Virus record (IMG/VR): IMGVR_UViG_3300032291_001071 | Location: 1 to 20,250 of that record | Source: a virus | Strand: one strand, 5' to 3' | Length of the DNA: 20,250 nucleotides | Shown here: one piece after another, positions 2,431-6,393 of the stretch | Numbering within the stretch: the stretch's first letter is position 1 | Layout of the letters: every line of letters begins with the position of its first letter | Translations under genes and position numbers: made by a program | The notes under the pieces: generated by a model | Seen by the model: the letters and a program-made list of their open reading frames with translations, nothing else | What the model was told of the DNA's origin: nothing | The model's database searches: none

Positions 2431-2712
2431 TTAACGGGCTGTTACTTTTAAAGTAATAACAGCCGTAGTTTTGGTGTGCTTTTCAATTAAGTCTGCTGGC
2501 ACATTGAGTTCTGCAAATACTGCTTTGTTATCTACAGTTTTGCGTTGTGACAATGTTACGCAAGATTTGTACAGGTTACCTTCTACATGGCCTTCACCAG
2601 CGTTTTTAAGGTTGTTCTTGATAACTTCTGCTTGTGCTTCCAAGTCAGCAATCTGAGCCAACAACATACCTAACTGGTCTACTTCTGTAATTTGAATGTC
2701 TAAAACTTGCAT
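2431..2712 (-). CDS. Hypothetical protein (93 aa) with N-terminal coiled coil
   Basis: The gene starts at ATG 2712 behind a strong AAAGGAGA ribosome site. Residues 8-38 form a heptad-like helix (LGMLLAQIADLEAQAEVIKN), followed by a basic, beta-rich C-terminal half ending TAVITLKVTAR. I have seen this general layout in small proteins of phage recombination modules but cannot name the family. It is the first gene of a leftward unit with its own promoter at 2756-2784. The 92 bases between it and the downstream lipoprotein hold no convincing gene. Confidence 0.75.
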   Translation of the reverse strand: MQVLDIQITEVDQLGMLLAQIADLEAQAEVIKNNLKNAGEGHVEGNLYKSCVTLSQRKTVDNKAVFAELNVPADLIEKHTKTTAVITLKVTAR

Positions 2713-2755
2713 TTGAATCTCCTTTTTCTATCTCACTCCCCAATGGAGTAACTCC

Positions 2756-2784
2756 AGTTTAATTTAGAAATCTAAAGTAATCAA
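2756..2784 (-). promoter_or_regulatory. Leftward promoter with embedded palindromic operator
   Basis: Read on the minus strand, TTGATT (2784-2779) and TAAACT (2761-2756) are separated by 17 bases, fitting a sigma-70 promoter that fires toward the gene starting at 2712. The spacer carries the palindrome TTTAGAAATCTAAA (2763-2776; arms TTTAGA/TCTAAA). Related sequences lie at the 4588-4616 and 5810-5838 promoters. A second small palindrome, GGAGTAACTCC (2745-2755), sits at the expected transcription start. Confidence 0.6.
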
Positions 2785-2978
2785 GCGTTTTTTATTAGGA
2801 CATTCCCTAATATGTGAAAAAACAACAGGGCAGTATTTAGCAGTTACTAGCTGTTAGGTGGAAAGCCACAAAAACCCTAACTTACTGCATCCTACTATGG
2901 TGGCTTAACGCCCTTAGATGGTGGGTCGGCAATCCCGTGAAGGAGCATAGATTTTGTCTACTTGCCGCCCATATTCCA
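2785..2978. other. Non-coding stretch rich in inverted repeats
   Basis: No gene is visible between the exonuclease stop and the promoter at 2756-2784. The stretch holds several inverted repeats: TATTAGG/CCTAATA (2793-2812); GTTAGG/CCTAAC (2853-2858 with 2876-2881) enclosing a GTGG-AAAG-CCAC hairpin; and a nine-pair stem GGG(T)CGGCAA with TTGCCGCCC (2923-2932 with 2962-2970) whose loop contains TAGA-TTTTG-TCTA. ATGGTGG occurs twice (near 2897 and 2918). None is followed by a T-run on either strand, so simple terminators are unlikely. A leader RNA, a small RNA or an origin are all possible. Confidence 0.45.
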
Positions 2979-3722
2979 TTATATTCCGTTCTTGATCTGA
3001 TAGACCCGTAACAGATGCTCAAAACATTCCCAGCCCTTTTGAAGCCGATCTTGCTCTATTTCAATTAATTTCACTTCATTGGTAGTGCCGTTTACAAAAA
3101 CAATGGCACATCTAGCTGTTGGCATACCCAAGCCTTCACGATATGCGGCTAATTGCATTTCATGTTCAAAGTAAACATCTACTTTTTCAAGGCTGGTATC
3201 TTTAGTCTTAAAATCAACAATAAAGCCACTTTTAGCCATTAAGTCGCATTTGCCACCATACCCTAGCGGATGACCAAACGAACGCTCTGCAAGCCAAGGC
3301 TGATCTCCAAAAGCATCTTTAAGGGCCTTATCAATATTATCCAAATAAGCTGGCTTTTCAGGCATATACATCTGCTCAAAATAGCCTTCAATAATGGCGT
3401 GGATCTTTGTACCCCGTTCTGCTGCTTCCCTACCCGTAGCCTTAGAATCTTGCATAACACGGGCTAACCACTCCTGTTCTGCTTCACCTTCTGCTCTAGG
3501 CAAGGTTAAGGCAGCTAACAAGACTTGTTGTTGCTTCCAAGTATCTAGCCCTGCTTTTGATAGCTGTCCGTTAATTGTTGTAACGCTAGGAAGAAGCCCT
3601 AACTTCCTTGCATCACGCAAAGTTGTAGGCCTTTCCCCAGTTTTACCAATAGTTGTATAAGCTGGCGTACCTTCTTTGGTATACCAATGGCCTGTATCTT
3701 GCTGTTTGTCTTTAACTATCAT
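2979..3722 (-). CDS. PD-(D/E)XK exonuclease, RecB/lambda-exo-like
   Basis: This 247-residue protein has the signature of the Cas4/RecB/lambda-exonuclease group of PD-(D/E)XK nucleases. His108 lies in RGTKIHAIIEGYF, Asp160 in GGKCDL, the D-x-K pair Asp170/Lys172 in FIVDFKTK, and the trailing Q-x3-Y motif is QLAAY (190-194). Such phage enzymes resect DNA ends for recombination or replication-coupled packaging. It starts two bases after the stop of the SSB-like gene, so the pair is co-translated, which fits a resection-plus-SSB module. No separate annealing protein is recognisable here. The enzyme class is firm; the exact role is inferred. Confidence 0.88.
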   Translation of the reverse strand: MIVKDKQQDTGHWYTKEGTPAYTTIGKTGERPTTLRDARKLGLLPSVTTINGQLSKAGLDTWKQQQVLLAALTLPRAEGEAEQEWLARVMQDSKATGREAAERGTKIHAIIEGYFEQMYMPEKPAYLDNIDKALKDAFGDQPWLAERSFGHPLGYGGKCDLMAKSGFIVDFKTKDTSLEKVDVYFEHEMQLAAYREGLGMPTARCAIVFVNGTTNEVKLIEIEQDRLQKGWECFEHLLRVYQIKNGI

Positions 3723-3724
3723 AA

Positions 3725-4339
3725 TTAAAAGGGAATATCCGATAAATCATCATCTTCAATCTTTGGGGCATCAGCTTCCCTAGCTTTTTGACCACGCCAC
3801 TCTGATGATTCGGTAATCTTTTCCTTATAGTATTTTGGCAGGGCATCGTATTTAACTTGATCAAATTCAGCTAACCAAAAATGCAAGGGAGCGTTAATGC
3901 CGTCAGGCTGGGCGTTACGCAATGCACTAGGAACAGGGCTAATACCGCTAATGTTGGCGTATTTACCATCTTCTGAGTGCGTAATGTTTACCATGCAAAA
4001 CTTGCCTAACAGATTCTTAAGGTCAAAGTTCTTACGATCTTCAGGGGTCATTTTTTTGTTTGACCACGCTTCTAAATCTTGACGCAATCTAGCTTGATCT
4101 CCAAGGCTGACTGTATAGCGTTTAGATACAATTAACGGCTTGCCATCATCAGTCTTAAGCGGTTGGTCGTTATCGTCATTACCATGCAATTCCCAAGTAA
4201 ATACTACTTTGTGCATGATCTTGGATTCGCCAGCCCATTCTACGGATTGGTGACCTAAGTCAATAATGGAGTAAAGCCGTGCCATGTGTAAGCCAGCAGG
4301 GGCAATCTTAAAATCTCTTTGAGTATCTTGAATAATCAT
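3725..4339 (-). CDS. ssb: Phage single-stranded DNA-binding protein
   Basis: This 204-residue protein ends in an acidic tail, EDDDLSDIPF, like the C-terminal tip that SSB proteins use to recruit partners. The N-terminal 150 residues alternate beta-strands and charged loops, as expected for an OB-fold of the phage SSB type. Its ATG overlaps the stop of the small gene upstream (ATGA) and the exonuclease follows after two bases, so it belongs to the leftward replication and recombination operon. The tail and the neighbour are the main evidence; the fold itself was judged by eye. Confidence 0.8.
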   Translation of the reverse strand: MIIQDTQRDFKIAPAGLHMARLYSIIDLGHQSVEWAGESKIMHKVVFTWELHGNDDNDQPLKTDDGKPLIVSKRYTVSLGDQARLRQDLEAWSNKKMTPEDRKNFDLKNLLGKFCMVNITHSEDGKYANISGISPVPSALRNAQPDGINAPLHFWLAEFDQVKYDALPKYYKEKITESSEWRGQKAREADAPKIEDDDLSDIPF

Positions 4340-4548
4340 TTTGTTGCTCCAAAAGTTGTGCCAAATTGTTCAAATAACGATTTGAGTGCGGGGTGTGGTG
4401 CTTTTTTAGGGGGCAATCCACAGCTATATCGCAGTAGATCAATTTGACGCTCGGTCAGGAATATTCCATCCTCGATGTCTTTGAAAATTTCTTCTAATTC
4501 TCGTTCTTGCTGAACTTGGTCAGCCCATTGCTGGTCTATTTCACTCAT
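4336..4548 (-). CDS. Small acidic hypothetical protein (70 aa), first gene of leftward operon
   Basis: The start at ATG 4548 (MSEIDQQWADQVQQEREL...) is preced by AGGAGA at a good distance; an in-frame ATG at 4569 lies in the leader palindrome and is less likely. The protein is mainly helical, with an acidic N-terminal half and a basic, proline-containing C-terminal half (GLPPKKAPHP). The last base of its stop overlaps the SSB-like gene start (ATGA). I do not recognise the family. Being first behind the strongest leftward promoter, it is an immediate-early product. Confidence 0.7.
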   Translation of the reverse strand: MSEIDQQWADQVQQERELEEIFKDIEDGIFLTERQIDLLRYSCGLPPKKAPHPALKSLFEQFGTTFGATK

Positions 4549-4567
4549 AAGAGTTCTCCTAATTAAC

Positions 4568-4581
4568 ACGGCAAATGCCGT
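4568..4581. promoter_or_regulatory. Palindrome ACGGCA-AA-TGCCGT at the leftward transcription start
   Basis: The 14-base palindrome has perfect six-base arms around AA. It covers the predicted start of the leftward transcript, so it could be an operator or the first hairpin of the leader RNA. It is different in sequence from the TTTAG-N4-CTAAA family, so a second regulator is possible. Confidence 0.45.
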
Positions 4582-4587
4582 ATTTAG

Positions 4588-4616
4588 ATATTAAGATAAC
4601 TAAATTAGATTGTCAA
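4588..4616 (-). promoter_or_regulatory. Strong leftward early promoter (PL-like)
   Basis: On the minus strand, a perfect TTGACA (4616-4611) is followed after exactly 17 bases by TAATAT (4593-4588), one mismatch from the -10 consensus. It would drive the operon beginning at 4548. The spacer contains TAATTTAGTTATCTTAA (plus-strand 4591-4607), a degenerate copy of the operator seen at 2763-2776 and 5823-5836. Confidence 0.7.
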
Positions 4617-4621
4617 CCCCC

Positions 4622-4650
4622 TTGTAAAATATATTTAAATCAATTAAGAT
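4622..4650 (+). promoter_or_regulatory. Candidate rightward promoter giving a leaderless repressor mRNA
   Basis: TTGTAA (4622-4627) and TAAGAT (4645-4650) are 17 bases apart. A start about seven bases after the -10 falls on or next to the A of the repressor ATG at 4657, and no Shine-Dalgarno precedes that ATG. This would be a leaderless transcript, as for lambda cI from PRM. An alternative pair, TTGTCA with TATTTA further upstream (16-base spacer), would give a leader of only about 10-15 bases. Confidence 0.4.
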
Positions 4651-4656
4651 TGTTGT

Positions 4657-4917
4657 ATGACTGACACATTTTTACTTTCTCACAACCAACTTATTGATCT
4701 GTTAGGCGGAACTAAAAAGGTCGCTAAAATGGCTAAAGTTAGTCAGGCAGCAGTTACGCATTGGCGTACAACTGATATACCTGAAGGGCAAATGATCCGT
4801 TTAGCAGCAGAATTAGAAAAACAATCACATGGTCTGATAAGCCGTAAGTCGCTTTTTCCCACTAGTTATGGCATGATATGGCCTGAACTATTGGAGAAAT
4901 ATAATGACCAAAAATGA
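4657..4917 (+). CDS. Cro-like / YdaS-like helix-turn-helix repressor
   Basis: This 86-residue protein has a helix-turn-helix at about residues 18-42 (GGTKKVAKMAKVSQAAVTHW), the pattern of small Cro/YdaS-type phage repressors, followed by a short C-terminal extension with MIWPELLEKY. It faces the leftward operon across about 90 bases that contain both promoters, so it is the natural candidate to bind the palindromes there. No ribosome-binding site is visible before the ATG. Its end overlaps the homing-endonuclease gene by 14 bases. No CI-like repressor with a protease domain and no integrase is present in the window, so lysogeny cannot be judged. Confidence 0.85.
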   Translation: MTDTFLLSHNQLIDLLGGTKKVAKMAKVSQAAVTHWRTTDIPEGQMIRLAAELEKQSHGLISRKSLFPTSYGMIWPELLEKYNDQK

Positions 4918-5380
4918 TTTGTTAGAAAATTTTTTGTTTATTGGTAATAATTTTTATTGGAAAAAAGCAAGATCAGGTATAAAAATTGGCCAAAAAGCTG
5001 GATCGCTTGAAAAAAATGGGTATTTAAGAATTAGGTTTAACACTAAAAAATACTTAGTTCACAGGCTTGTTTTTTTGTACCACTATGATTATTTGCCTAA
5101 ATATGTAGATCACATTGATGGAAACCCGTTAAACAATGACATAAGCAATTTACGGCCAGCTACCTTTGCTCAAAATAAATTAAACACAAAATTACAAAAA
5201 AACAACACTTCAGGCTACAAAAATGTTACTTGGTCAAAATCTCAAAAAAAATGGCGAGTTAATCTTTTGCTAAAAGGAAAAAATGTAAATTTTGGCGGTT
5301 ATGATGACATTGAACTGGCTGATTTAGTGGCACAAGAAGCAAGAAAAAAATATCATAAAGATTTTGCAAGGCATTTTTAA
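4904..5380 (+). CDS. HNH homing endonuclease with C-terminal AP2 DNA-binding domain
   Basis: This 158-residue protein carries an HNH_3-type nuclease core: LVHRLVFLYHY (51-61), the VDHIDGNPLNN segment at 68-78 and SNLRP at 81-85, with His53, Asp69/His70 and Asn82/Asn91 as likely metal or catalytic positions. Residues 102-150 (SGYKNVTW...KKWRV...GGYDDIELA) form an AP2 domain, which binds the target DNA. Such free-standing endonucleases spread themselves into related phages. The gene is visibly more A/T-rich than its neighbours and overlaps the repressor end by 14 bases, as expected of a recent insertion. A GGAG lies eight bases before the ATG. Confidence 0.92.
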   Translation: MTKNDLLENFLFIGNNFYWKKARSGIKIGQKAGSLEKNGYLRIRFNTKKYLVHRLVFLYHYDYLPKYVDHIDGNPLNNDISNLRPATFAQNKLNTKLQKNNTSGYKNVTWSKSQKKWRVNLLLKGKNVNFGGYDDIELADLVAQEARKKYHKDFARHF

Positions 5381-5393
5381 TTTGTAGTACACT
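5364..5393 (+). promoter_or_regulatory. Weak candidate promoter for the hairpin RNA
   Basis: TTGCAA (5364-5369) and TACACT (5388-5393) are 18 bases apart and would start transcription near 5400, just before the structured stretch ending in a T-run. The -35 box lies inside the end of the HNH gene. An alternative overlapping pair with a 17-base spacer also exists, so the exact promoter is uncertain. Confidence 0.25.
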
Positions 5394-5399
5394 AACAAT

Positions 5400-5521
5400 A
5401 TTGAGGACTGAAACACTCGATAGTCAAGGGTTTTAGAGGTAACTTTGTGGGTTTAGGAAAGAAGTTAAAGAGGTCTTTTCTAAGCCGTTTCAGCATAAAG
5501 CTACCCCTAAAGCCCTTTTTT
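5400..5521 (+). ncRNA. Candidate structured RNA: long rod-like hairpin ending in T6
   Basis: The outer arms 5428-5443 and 5500-5515 can form a 16-position stem with only two mismatches (one G-U pair). An inner 13-pair stem is formed by 5450-5462 with 5474-5486, again using G-U pairs, closed by an 11-base loop. Six T residues (5516-5521) follow directly. The simplest reading is an unusually long rho-independent terminator after the repressor/HNH unit; with the weak promoter at 5364-5393 it could also be an independent RNA of about 120 nt. A GTG at 5448 opens a 36-codon basic peptide frame inside the same stretch, which I consider less likely than the RNA. No known RNA family was recognised. 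Confidence 0.45.
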
Positions 5522-5797
5522 ATTGCTCATTCTCATTCGTACTCCAAACGATATTAAGCACCTAAATGGGTGGCGTGGAATAGAACATAGGCTGGTTTAC
5601 ACCTGATCGCAAGCCTCGCTGACTTAAATGGGTACAGCACAAGTTATAGGAACAATGGTGAGACAAGCCCTATAACGATTGAACATTATCTTAGGAAGCA
5701 TTAGTTCAAGATCAACTTCTTGAATGGATGAAGGTTTATCACCTTTGGGACACCTATGACAAAAAACAACACTTAGGGAAACTACCTACAAAATAAA
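5522..5797 (+). pseudogene. Possible decayed coding sequence (short frames, several shifts)
   Basis: No complete gene is visible, but several short frames read like protein: a piece around 5534-5602 containing NDIKHLNGWRGIEHRLVYT, a piece around 5628-5672 (MGTAQVIGTMVRQAL), and a final piece from 5695 ending at TAA 5797 (LLEWMKVYHLWDTYDKK...). They lie in different frames and are separated by stops, so an intact protein would require several frameshifts. This could be the remains of a gene damaged near the HNH insertion. Chance cannot be excluded without homologues. Confidence 0.3.
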
Positions 5798-5809
5798 TAC
5801 AAATAGTTG

Positions 5810-5838
5810 TTGACAAGCATAATTTAGAAAACTAAACT
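5810..5838 (+). promoter_or_regulatory. Rightward early promoter with embedded operator (PR-like)
   Basis: A perfect TTGACA (5810-5815) is followed after 17 bases by TAAACT (5833-5838). It would start the rightward replication operon at 5868. The palindrome TTTAGAAAACTAAA (5823-5836; arms TTTAG/CTAAA) overlaps the -10 box, so a bound repressor would block polymerase. The same -10 hexamer and nearly the same palindrome occur at the leftward promoter 2756-2784. Confidence 0.65.
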
Positions 5839-5867
5839 GGTGTTACTTAATAACAAGTGAGATAGAC

Positions 5868-6023
5868 ATGAATATTCAAAATCAAATCATTGCAGAAAAA
5901 GATGGTTCATTTACGATCAATGTTGATTGGTATCAAAAACAATACTTTCAATTGCTTGAAGCATACAAAATGCTAGAAGAAGAATGCAAAGCATTACGGG
6001 AGCAGGTCAATGAACTTCAATGA
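5868..6023 (+). CDS. Small helical protein (51 aa), first gene of rightward operon
   Basis: ATG 5868 opens a 52-codon frame ending at TGA 6021-6023. The N-terminal third is polar (MNIQNQIIAEKDGSFTINVD) and the rest is a charged amphipathic helix (LLEAYKMLEEECKALREQVNELQ) likely to form a coiled coil. It overlaps the next gene's start by 14 bases. No family was recognised. Being first behind the PR-like promoter, it should be made very early. Confidence 0.65.
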   Translation: MNIQNQIIAEKDGSFTINVDWYQKQYFQLLEAYKMLEEECKALREQVNELQ

Positions 6024-6393
6024 ATTCTATGCTTTATATCCTCGTAAAATGGGGCGTAAAGACGCTGAAAGGTCATGGAACAGGCTAACCCCCATCCAGC
6101 AAGCAGAGTGCCTTGAAGCCATGCCAAATTACCTTAAATATTGGAAGATTAAAGAAACGGCTAAAGACTTCATACCCTACCCCGCTACCTTTTTAAATCA
6201 AGAACGCTGGACAGATGAGATTGACATTGAGCCAATACAGTCTAAAAAACCTGAATTGCCTTGGTACTCATCCGAAGAACTAACTAAAGCCAAAGCACAA
6301 GAATTAGGAGTACAAGCGTATGCAGGTGAAGGATGGCAGCAATGGCGTTCTAGGATTAGTCAAAAGATAAAGCAATTAGAGGAACAACTTTGA
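6010..6393 (+). CDS. Phage replication-protein-like small protein
   Basis: This 127-residue protein begins NEFYALYPRKMGRKDAERSW and continues through FIPYPATFLNQERW (about residues 54-67). This FxxxYPRK...PATFLNQxRWxDE pattern is typical of the C-terminal part of many phage and plasmid replication proteins, where it follows a winged-helix DNA-binding part. Here that part is missing: the 51-residue gene upstream is too short to supply it. It may therefore be a stand-alone helper that loads replication factors. It ends with the TTGA junction that starts dcm. The motif is clear; the function is inferred. Confidence 0.75.
   Translation: MNFNEFYALYPRKMGRKDAERSWNRLTPIQQAECLEAMPNYLKYWKIKETAKDFIPYPATFLNQERWTDEIDIEPIQSKKPELPWYSSEELTKAKAQELGVQAYAGEGWQQWRSRISQKIKQLEEQL

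Follow-up and report, generated by a model that had tools for sequence, protein, structure and literature searches.

The stretch of viral DNA analysed here, hereafter the window, is 20,250 nucleotides long (positions 1 to 20,250 of the IMG/VR record IMGVR_UViG_3300032291_001071) and carries a gene for an 86-residue Cro-like protein together with three scattered, predicted early promoters. Our analysis suggests that the Cro-like protein binds the palindrome TTTAG-N4-CTAAA located, in one case with a mismatch, at each of these promoters and thereby blocks all three, resulting in an early shut-off, while cro itself is expressed from a promoter free of the operator. Based on comparison of the window with its relatives, we give this reading a probability of about 0.86.

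The left operator TTTAGAAATCTAAA (2763..2776) is located within the spacer of the predicted left early promoter (2756..2784, minus strand), which consists of TTGATT (2784-2779) and TAAACT (2761-2756) separated by 17 bp and has the same geometry in relatives. The right operator TTTAGAAAACTAAA (5823..5836) covers the spacer and the -10 box of the predicted right early promoter (5810..5838, plus strand; TTGACA at 5810-5815, 17 bp, TAAACT at 5833-5838). Between them, the middle operator TTAAGATAACTAAA (4591..4604) lies over the spacer and the -10 box of the promoter predicted for the leftward operon 4569-2979 (4588..4616, minus strand; TTGACA at 4616-4611, 17 bp, TAATAT at 4593-4588). Two of the three sites are exact copies of TTTAG-N4-CTAAA and the third, a hybrid of two half-site types, has a single mismatch. 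The original prediction had described three operators inside or over promoters with 17-bp spacers, two of them firing leftward and one rightward and two having TAAACT as the -10 box in common. Inspection of the sequence bears this out, with the left and middle promoters on the minus strand, the right one on the plus strand and TAAACT in the left and right promoters. Each promoter has one operator only; the window does not show the clusters of several operators, at PL and at PR, that characterise lambdoid immunity.

Exact copies of the palindrome are far more frequent in the window than expected by chance (2 observed, 0.06 expected; two or more in 0 of 100 shuffles). Allowing up to one mismatch gives 5 matches against 1.8 expected, a count which is reached in 3 of 100 shuffles, so the middle site is not significant in the window by itself. 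With two mismatches the count (26 observed, 19 expected) is near chance. However, the middle site gains credibility from the relatives, since loci L002, L004, L005, L008, L010 and L011 carry the perfect palindromes TTTAGATAACTAAA at the same position.

A search with the Cro-like protein yielded 32 IMG/VR loci, and a further search with their alignment yielded 80, many of them new. The palindrome is found at the same three promoters in related loci, a check that had been proposed along with the original prediction, and the loci fall into classes according to the recognition helix of Cro. Class A, with the helix (S/T)QAAVTHW and the operator TTTAG-N4-CTAAA, comprises 18 loci including the window, each with a site at at least one of the three promoters (66 bp upstream of cro, about 1.8-2.3 kb to its left and about 0.7-1.4 kb to its right); both exact sites of the window are of this class. 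Class B combines the helix SV(P/A)AVSMW with TTAAG-N4-CTTAA at the same promoters, and the two loci of class C combine SIQAVCQW with TAAAG-N4-CTTTA or near matches to it. The same motifs emerge from blind counts of inverted repeats with 5-bp arms: TTTAG-N4-CTAAA ranks first in loci with QAAVTHW (25 distinct contexts, 8 for the runner-up) and TTAAG-N4-CTTAA in loci with VPAVSMW (48 and 15, respectively). In ten larger records of 20-37 kb the pooled palindrome pattern has 1-5 matches each, mostly at the three positions. For the more distant Cro classes with the helices PNAVSMW, PNAVSQW, PAAVSLW and PPAVTQW, no repeated symmetric operator was found. The annotated OL and OR of phage P22 (NC_002371) contain one exact class B site each, with one exact site of class C in OR as well, so classes B and C can be regarded as P22-type. 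The class A half-site differs from that of class B at one position. There are thus at least three operator specificities, that of the window site being one of them; two are P22-type, and the class of the window departs from these.

The class of the operator follows Cro and not the neighbouring genes. Among the distinct exact sites at the three promoters, class A loci have 27 of class A and 1 of class B, class B loci have 48 of class B and none of class A, and class C loci have 2 of class C; thus 77 of 78 sites match the class of their Cro. A single change of operator class is seen on the Cro tree. Two genes, a single-strand DNA binding (SSB)-like gene and a nuclease gene, lie between the left operator and cro, and on each of their trees the class changes 7 times; on the nuclease tree, well-supported branches force 5 of the 7 changes. 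Among the five supported independent pairs of the nuclease tree, the left operator agrees with Cro in an average of 4.5 and opposes it in none, and the right operator agrees with Cro in 4 of 4. Near relatives show the same. Protein identity between the window and the class B locus L023 is 91-95% for the nuclease, for the SSB-like protein and for the product of the first left gene, but 58% for Cro. The main difference between their left promoters is an operator patch of about 30 bp. Similarly, L010 and L020 are 92-100% identical in the 50-column blocks flanking the left operator, and 72% in the operator block itself. Locus L047, whose near relative L005 is of class A, has the same class B patch as L020, extending past the arms of the palindrome, a hint that short patches have been exchanged instead of bases mutated one by one. 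Because operator class follows the helix of Cro, it is very probable that one repressor acting in trans, the Cro-like protein, recognises all three sites. This supports the earlier proposal that one repressor, likely this protein, sets both early arms.

The Cro-like protein is encoded at 4657..4917 on the plus strand and has the recognition helix SQAAVTHW. It matches PF14549 (P22_Cro) over residues 10-47 with 28.1 bits (E-value 1.7e-6), under the curated cut-off of 30.2, and is for this reason described here as Cro-like and not as a member of PF14549. Its match to PF15943 (YdaS), 27 bits, is also below the cut-off of 30. When the family profile is compared with solved structures, P22 Cro (1rzs) ranks first and YdaS (8c7k, 8co2) is matched as well. 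The AlphaFold model (predicted local distance difference test score, pLDDT, 83) has an all-helical helix-turn-helix (HTH) fold resembling that of P22 Cro, the closest folds according to Foldseek being 3bd1, 8c7k and 1rzs (Xfaso1 Cro, YdaS and P22 Cro, respectively). The 5-bp inverted half-sites, spaced 4 bp apart, are present at the early promoters and covary with the helix.

Several observations weigh against the Cro-like protein as the reader of the three sites. The Foldseek E-values are weak (0.02) and the P22_Cro score is slightly below the cut-off. The single exception among the exact sites is the left operator of L004 (1673-1686), which is of class B although Cro and the middle and right sites of that locus are of class A; this 5-kb contig may be chimeric, a recent recombinant or an intermediate of operator switching. 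Eight class A loci lack a middle-promoter site within one mismatch and have just the half-degenerate TTAACTTATCTAAA. Finally, the covariation is based on three helix classes, and the independent pairs are too few for p <0.05.

In the circuit that we propose, the Cro-like protein, presumably as a dimer, would bind TTTAG-N4-CTAAA, and the bound dimer, sitting in the spacer or over the -10 box, would exclude RNA polymerase. Its targets would be the leftward operon beside cro (a 77-aa gene, the SSB-like gene and the nuclease gene), the far-left operon running leftward from 2712, and the right operon with a replication gene. The divergent cro promoter is predicted at 4622..4650 (plus strand; TTGTAA, 17 bp, TAAGAT). 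It places the transcription start around 4657, near the ATG, and the cro mRNA is therefore probably leaderless. No class A operator overlaps this promoter, so Cro would be expected to build up after infection and then to shut early transcription off. The situation differs in class B. There, a 9-of-10 operator takes in the cro -10 box (TTAAGAT) and extends to the start codon in 20 of 20 distinct loci, and its right arm occurs in six different forms, each with one mismatch. In class A the same place has no such near-operator (0 of 13 loci; 5-6 of 10 matches). Therefore the Cro of class B probably represses its own gene, and that of the window probably does not, at least by this route.

The likeliest interpretation is a virulent phage whose early shut-off depends on Cro alone. 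No match to integrase or recombinase profiles (PF00589, PF00239) or to the S24 repressor (PF00717) was found in 11 records, which have no completeness estimate and are possibly incomplete, and HTH_3 matched the cro gene alone, below cut-off, so a second regulator of this type is not seen there either. The lack of a detected integrase, resolvase, S24 repressor or second HTH regulator suggests such a circuit. The same repressor could instead maintain an integrase-free, plasmid-like lysogen, as an analogue of CI without a separate lytic Cro, an explanation that differs from ours solely in the role given to the protein. It is consistent with the divergent orientation of cro from the leftward operon and with its predicted leaderless transcript, as leaderless cI-type repressor genes have been described (PMC8630535). 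In addition, all records may be fragments, and partitioning genes were not searched for. However, the negative results of the profile searches count against a lysogen, as does the fact that a pseudoknotted RNA associated with these loci (described below) has no match in genome_contigs, and we regard this role as unlikely, though the most credible of the alternatives.

It is also conceivable that another regulator, of the host or the phage, binds the palindromes and that Cro is a bystander, as only part of the genome of the window phage is at hand and binding by Cro is deduced from sequence. We consider this quite improbable, because operator class tracks the recognition helix of Cro and not the neighbouring genes and because the 11 records have neither an S24 repressor nor an HTH_3 match besides the cro gene. 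The idea that the palindromes are by-products of AT-rich -10 and spacer sequence, with no regulator involved, can be nearly dismissed: they do sit exactly in promoters, AT-rich palindromes are cheap in this genome and the two-mismatch pattern is near chance, but the arms are exact while the four central bases differ from site to site, the arms change over together when the class of Cro changes, and the blind counts pick out the same motifs.

Taking the Cro-like protein as the reader of all three sites, one may tentatively go further and imagine cro and its three unlinked operators as a discontinuous immunity module of probably virulent phages. Recombination or selection might swap the patches of about 30 bp singly to match an incoming cro, giving rise to heteroimmune groups. 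The difference between TTAAG and TTTAG would at the same time remove the autorepression site in the cro -10 box and turn an autorepressed circuit into an open-loop one. This extension is speculative and we would not favour it over its contrary.

Among the genes around the sites, the leftward operon begins with a gene for 77 aa with no assigned function (4336..4569, minus strand), followed by the SSB-like gene (3725..4339, minus strand; PHROG 862), whose remote matches in other phages carry the annotation single-strand DNA binding, and the gene for an exonuclease-like PD-(D/E)XK nuclease (2979..3722, minus strand). The 93-aa gene that comes first after the left promoter (2431..2712, minus strand) and the 51-aa gene that comes first after the right promoter (5868..6023, plus strand) have no assigned function, and the next right-arm gene (6010..6393, plus strand; PHROG 270) is related to replication initiation proteins. 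An HNH endonuclease gene (4904-5380) is located between cro and the right promoter. It has relatives in only some of the related loci and a DNA match of its own in phage MW202520, as expected for a mobile gene. DNA similarity search against named phages returned just two weak matches, one in the HNH gene and the other in that of the nuclease, and a tRNA scan found none.

A short hairpin opens all three predicted early transcripts. The left transcript starts with ACTCC-ATTGG-GGAGT (2735..2749, minus strand), followed by the motif GAGATAGA, and the right transcript with ACTT-AATAAC-AAGT (5845..5858, plus strand), a leader of the same type. These two leaders share ACTNN..NNAGTGAGATAGA, and from leader to leader the stem bases differ in compensated pairs. 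The leftward transcript starts with ACGGC-ATTT-GCCGT (4568..4581, minus strand), which has paired changes among relatives. The hairpins possibly serve RNA stability or act as an antitermination signal. They were set aside as the target of the regulator, as the operator switches while the hairpin remains unchanged.

The noncoding DNA between the sites has mostly the appearance of structured RNA. A pseudoknotted RNA (approximately 2827-2914, minus strand; alignments A2 and A3) consists of P1 to P4 and a 7-bp pseudoknot between J1/2 and the loop of P4. Over 74 distinct sequences 99.1% of the cells are paired and 12 pairs have changed on both sides; its covariation is 0.240 against 0.087 when shuffled, slid controls collapse, and G-U pairs favour the minus strand. 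It is present in at least 120 IMG/VR stretches (e.g. L117:916-1050, L134:6537-6671 and L161:539-663). In 73 of 81 copies it lies 3' of the nuclease gene, usually 36-203 nt behind it, and some of the other copies lie behind an unrelated gene, named by eye as SprT-type metalloprotease-like from its HExxH motif. A second conserved and foldable stretch (2920-2978, minus strand; GGGCGGCAA ... TTGCCGACCC) is located directly behind the nuclease gene, before the pseudoknotted RNA, and is 85-94% identical in several relatives. On the other side of cro, the region 5385-5809 has a fold z-score of -3.5. It holds a rod-like RNA (approximately 5427-5521, plus strand; alignment A5) ending in a terminator-like G+C stem and T run, with 95.9% of cells paired in 15 sequences and changes on both sides in 18 of 31 pairs, and a branched RNA upstream of the right promoter (approximately 5543-5747, plus strand; alignment A4), with 98.7% of cells paired in 16 sequences and such changes in 16 of 34 pairs. 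Paired changes in all three RNAs are far above controls. Rfam gave no convincing match for the window or its noncoding pieces, these RNAs included; permissive matches such as mir-34 and MIR1888 were taken as chance. A literature search for a description of the RNA returned nothing relevant.

The window comes from a freshwater virus of bacteria, in whose relatives a repressor and three scattered sites have changed together several times, and it thus forms part of a natural record of rewiring. Three recognition helices and three half-sites, one or two bases apart, are found in near-identical genomic backgrounds, and the hybrid half-sites at the middle promoter and L004 with its one unswitched site are possible intermediates. 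How a regulator and its scattered targets change jointly without loss of control is a long-standing question, which is directly testable in such pairs. The analysis also suggests that a single Cro-like protein may suffice for early shut-off in a phage with no detected CI or integrase.

The component parts are of known kinds, namely P22-type Cro and operators, YdaS, dispersed repressor sites and a correlation between helix and half-site. Cro and C2 of P22, with OL and OR, are the closest case, P22 Cro being the nearest solved Cro by profile (1rzs) and the 14-bp operator plan being common to both. However, TTTAG-N4-CTAAA is absent from the P22 operators, which are clustered and serve two repressors, whereas the window has one operator per promoter at three promoters over 3 kb; no C2 or CI was found, and cro is transcribed from its own predicted promoter. 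YdaS of the E. coli prophage CP-933P, an analogue of Cro, has a related fold (8c7k, 8co2) and also matches in its C-terminal segment. The consensus of the inverted repeats in CP-933P, GTTTAGTAA, contains TTTAG, and its repressor gene is leaderless (PMC8630535). That system differs in its 18-bp repeats, which have another spacing and occur several per promoter region, and in having a CI-like partner, PaaR2, and the CII-like YdaT (PMC8630535). In cluster A mycobacteriophages one repressor reads dispersed single stoperators, whose motif is phage-specific and varies between phages (PMC6550527). These phages are temperate and their stoperators, up to about 30 genome-wide, are mostly in one orientation (PMC6550527), unlike the three palindromes of the window, all located in promoters; the ten larger records have 1-5 palindrome matches per 20-37 kb record. 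A correlation of the Cro recognition helix with the operator half-site was reported by Hall, Lefevre and Cordes in 2005, as cited in PMC4997575. The idea is the same, but here a single phage family contains three classes, exchange has been repeated and the flanks are nearly identical. As far as the literature searched goes, what is new is the combination of three features: scattered promoters, three in number, with a single operator each, no partner repressor detected, and repeated joint switching of the operators and Cro in near-identical backgrounds.

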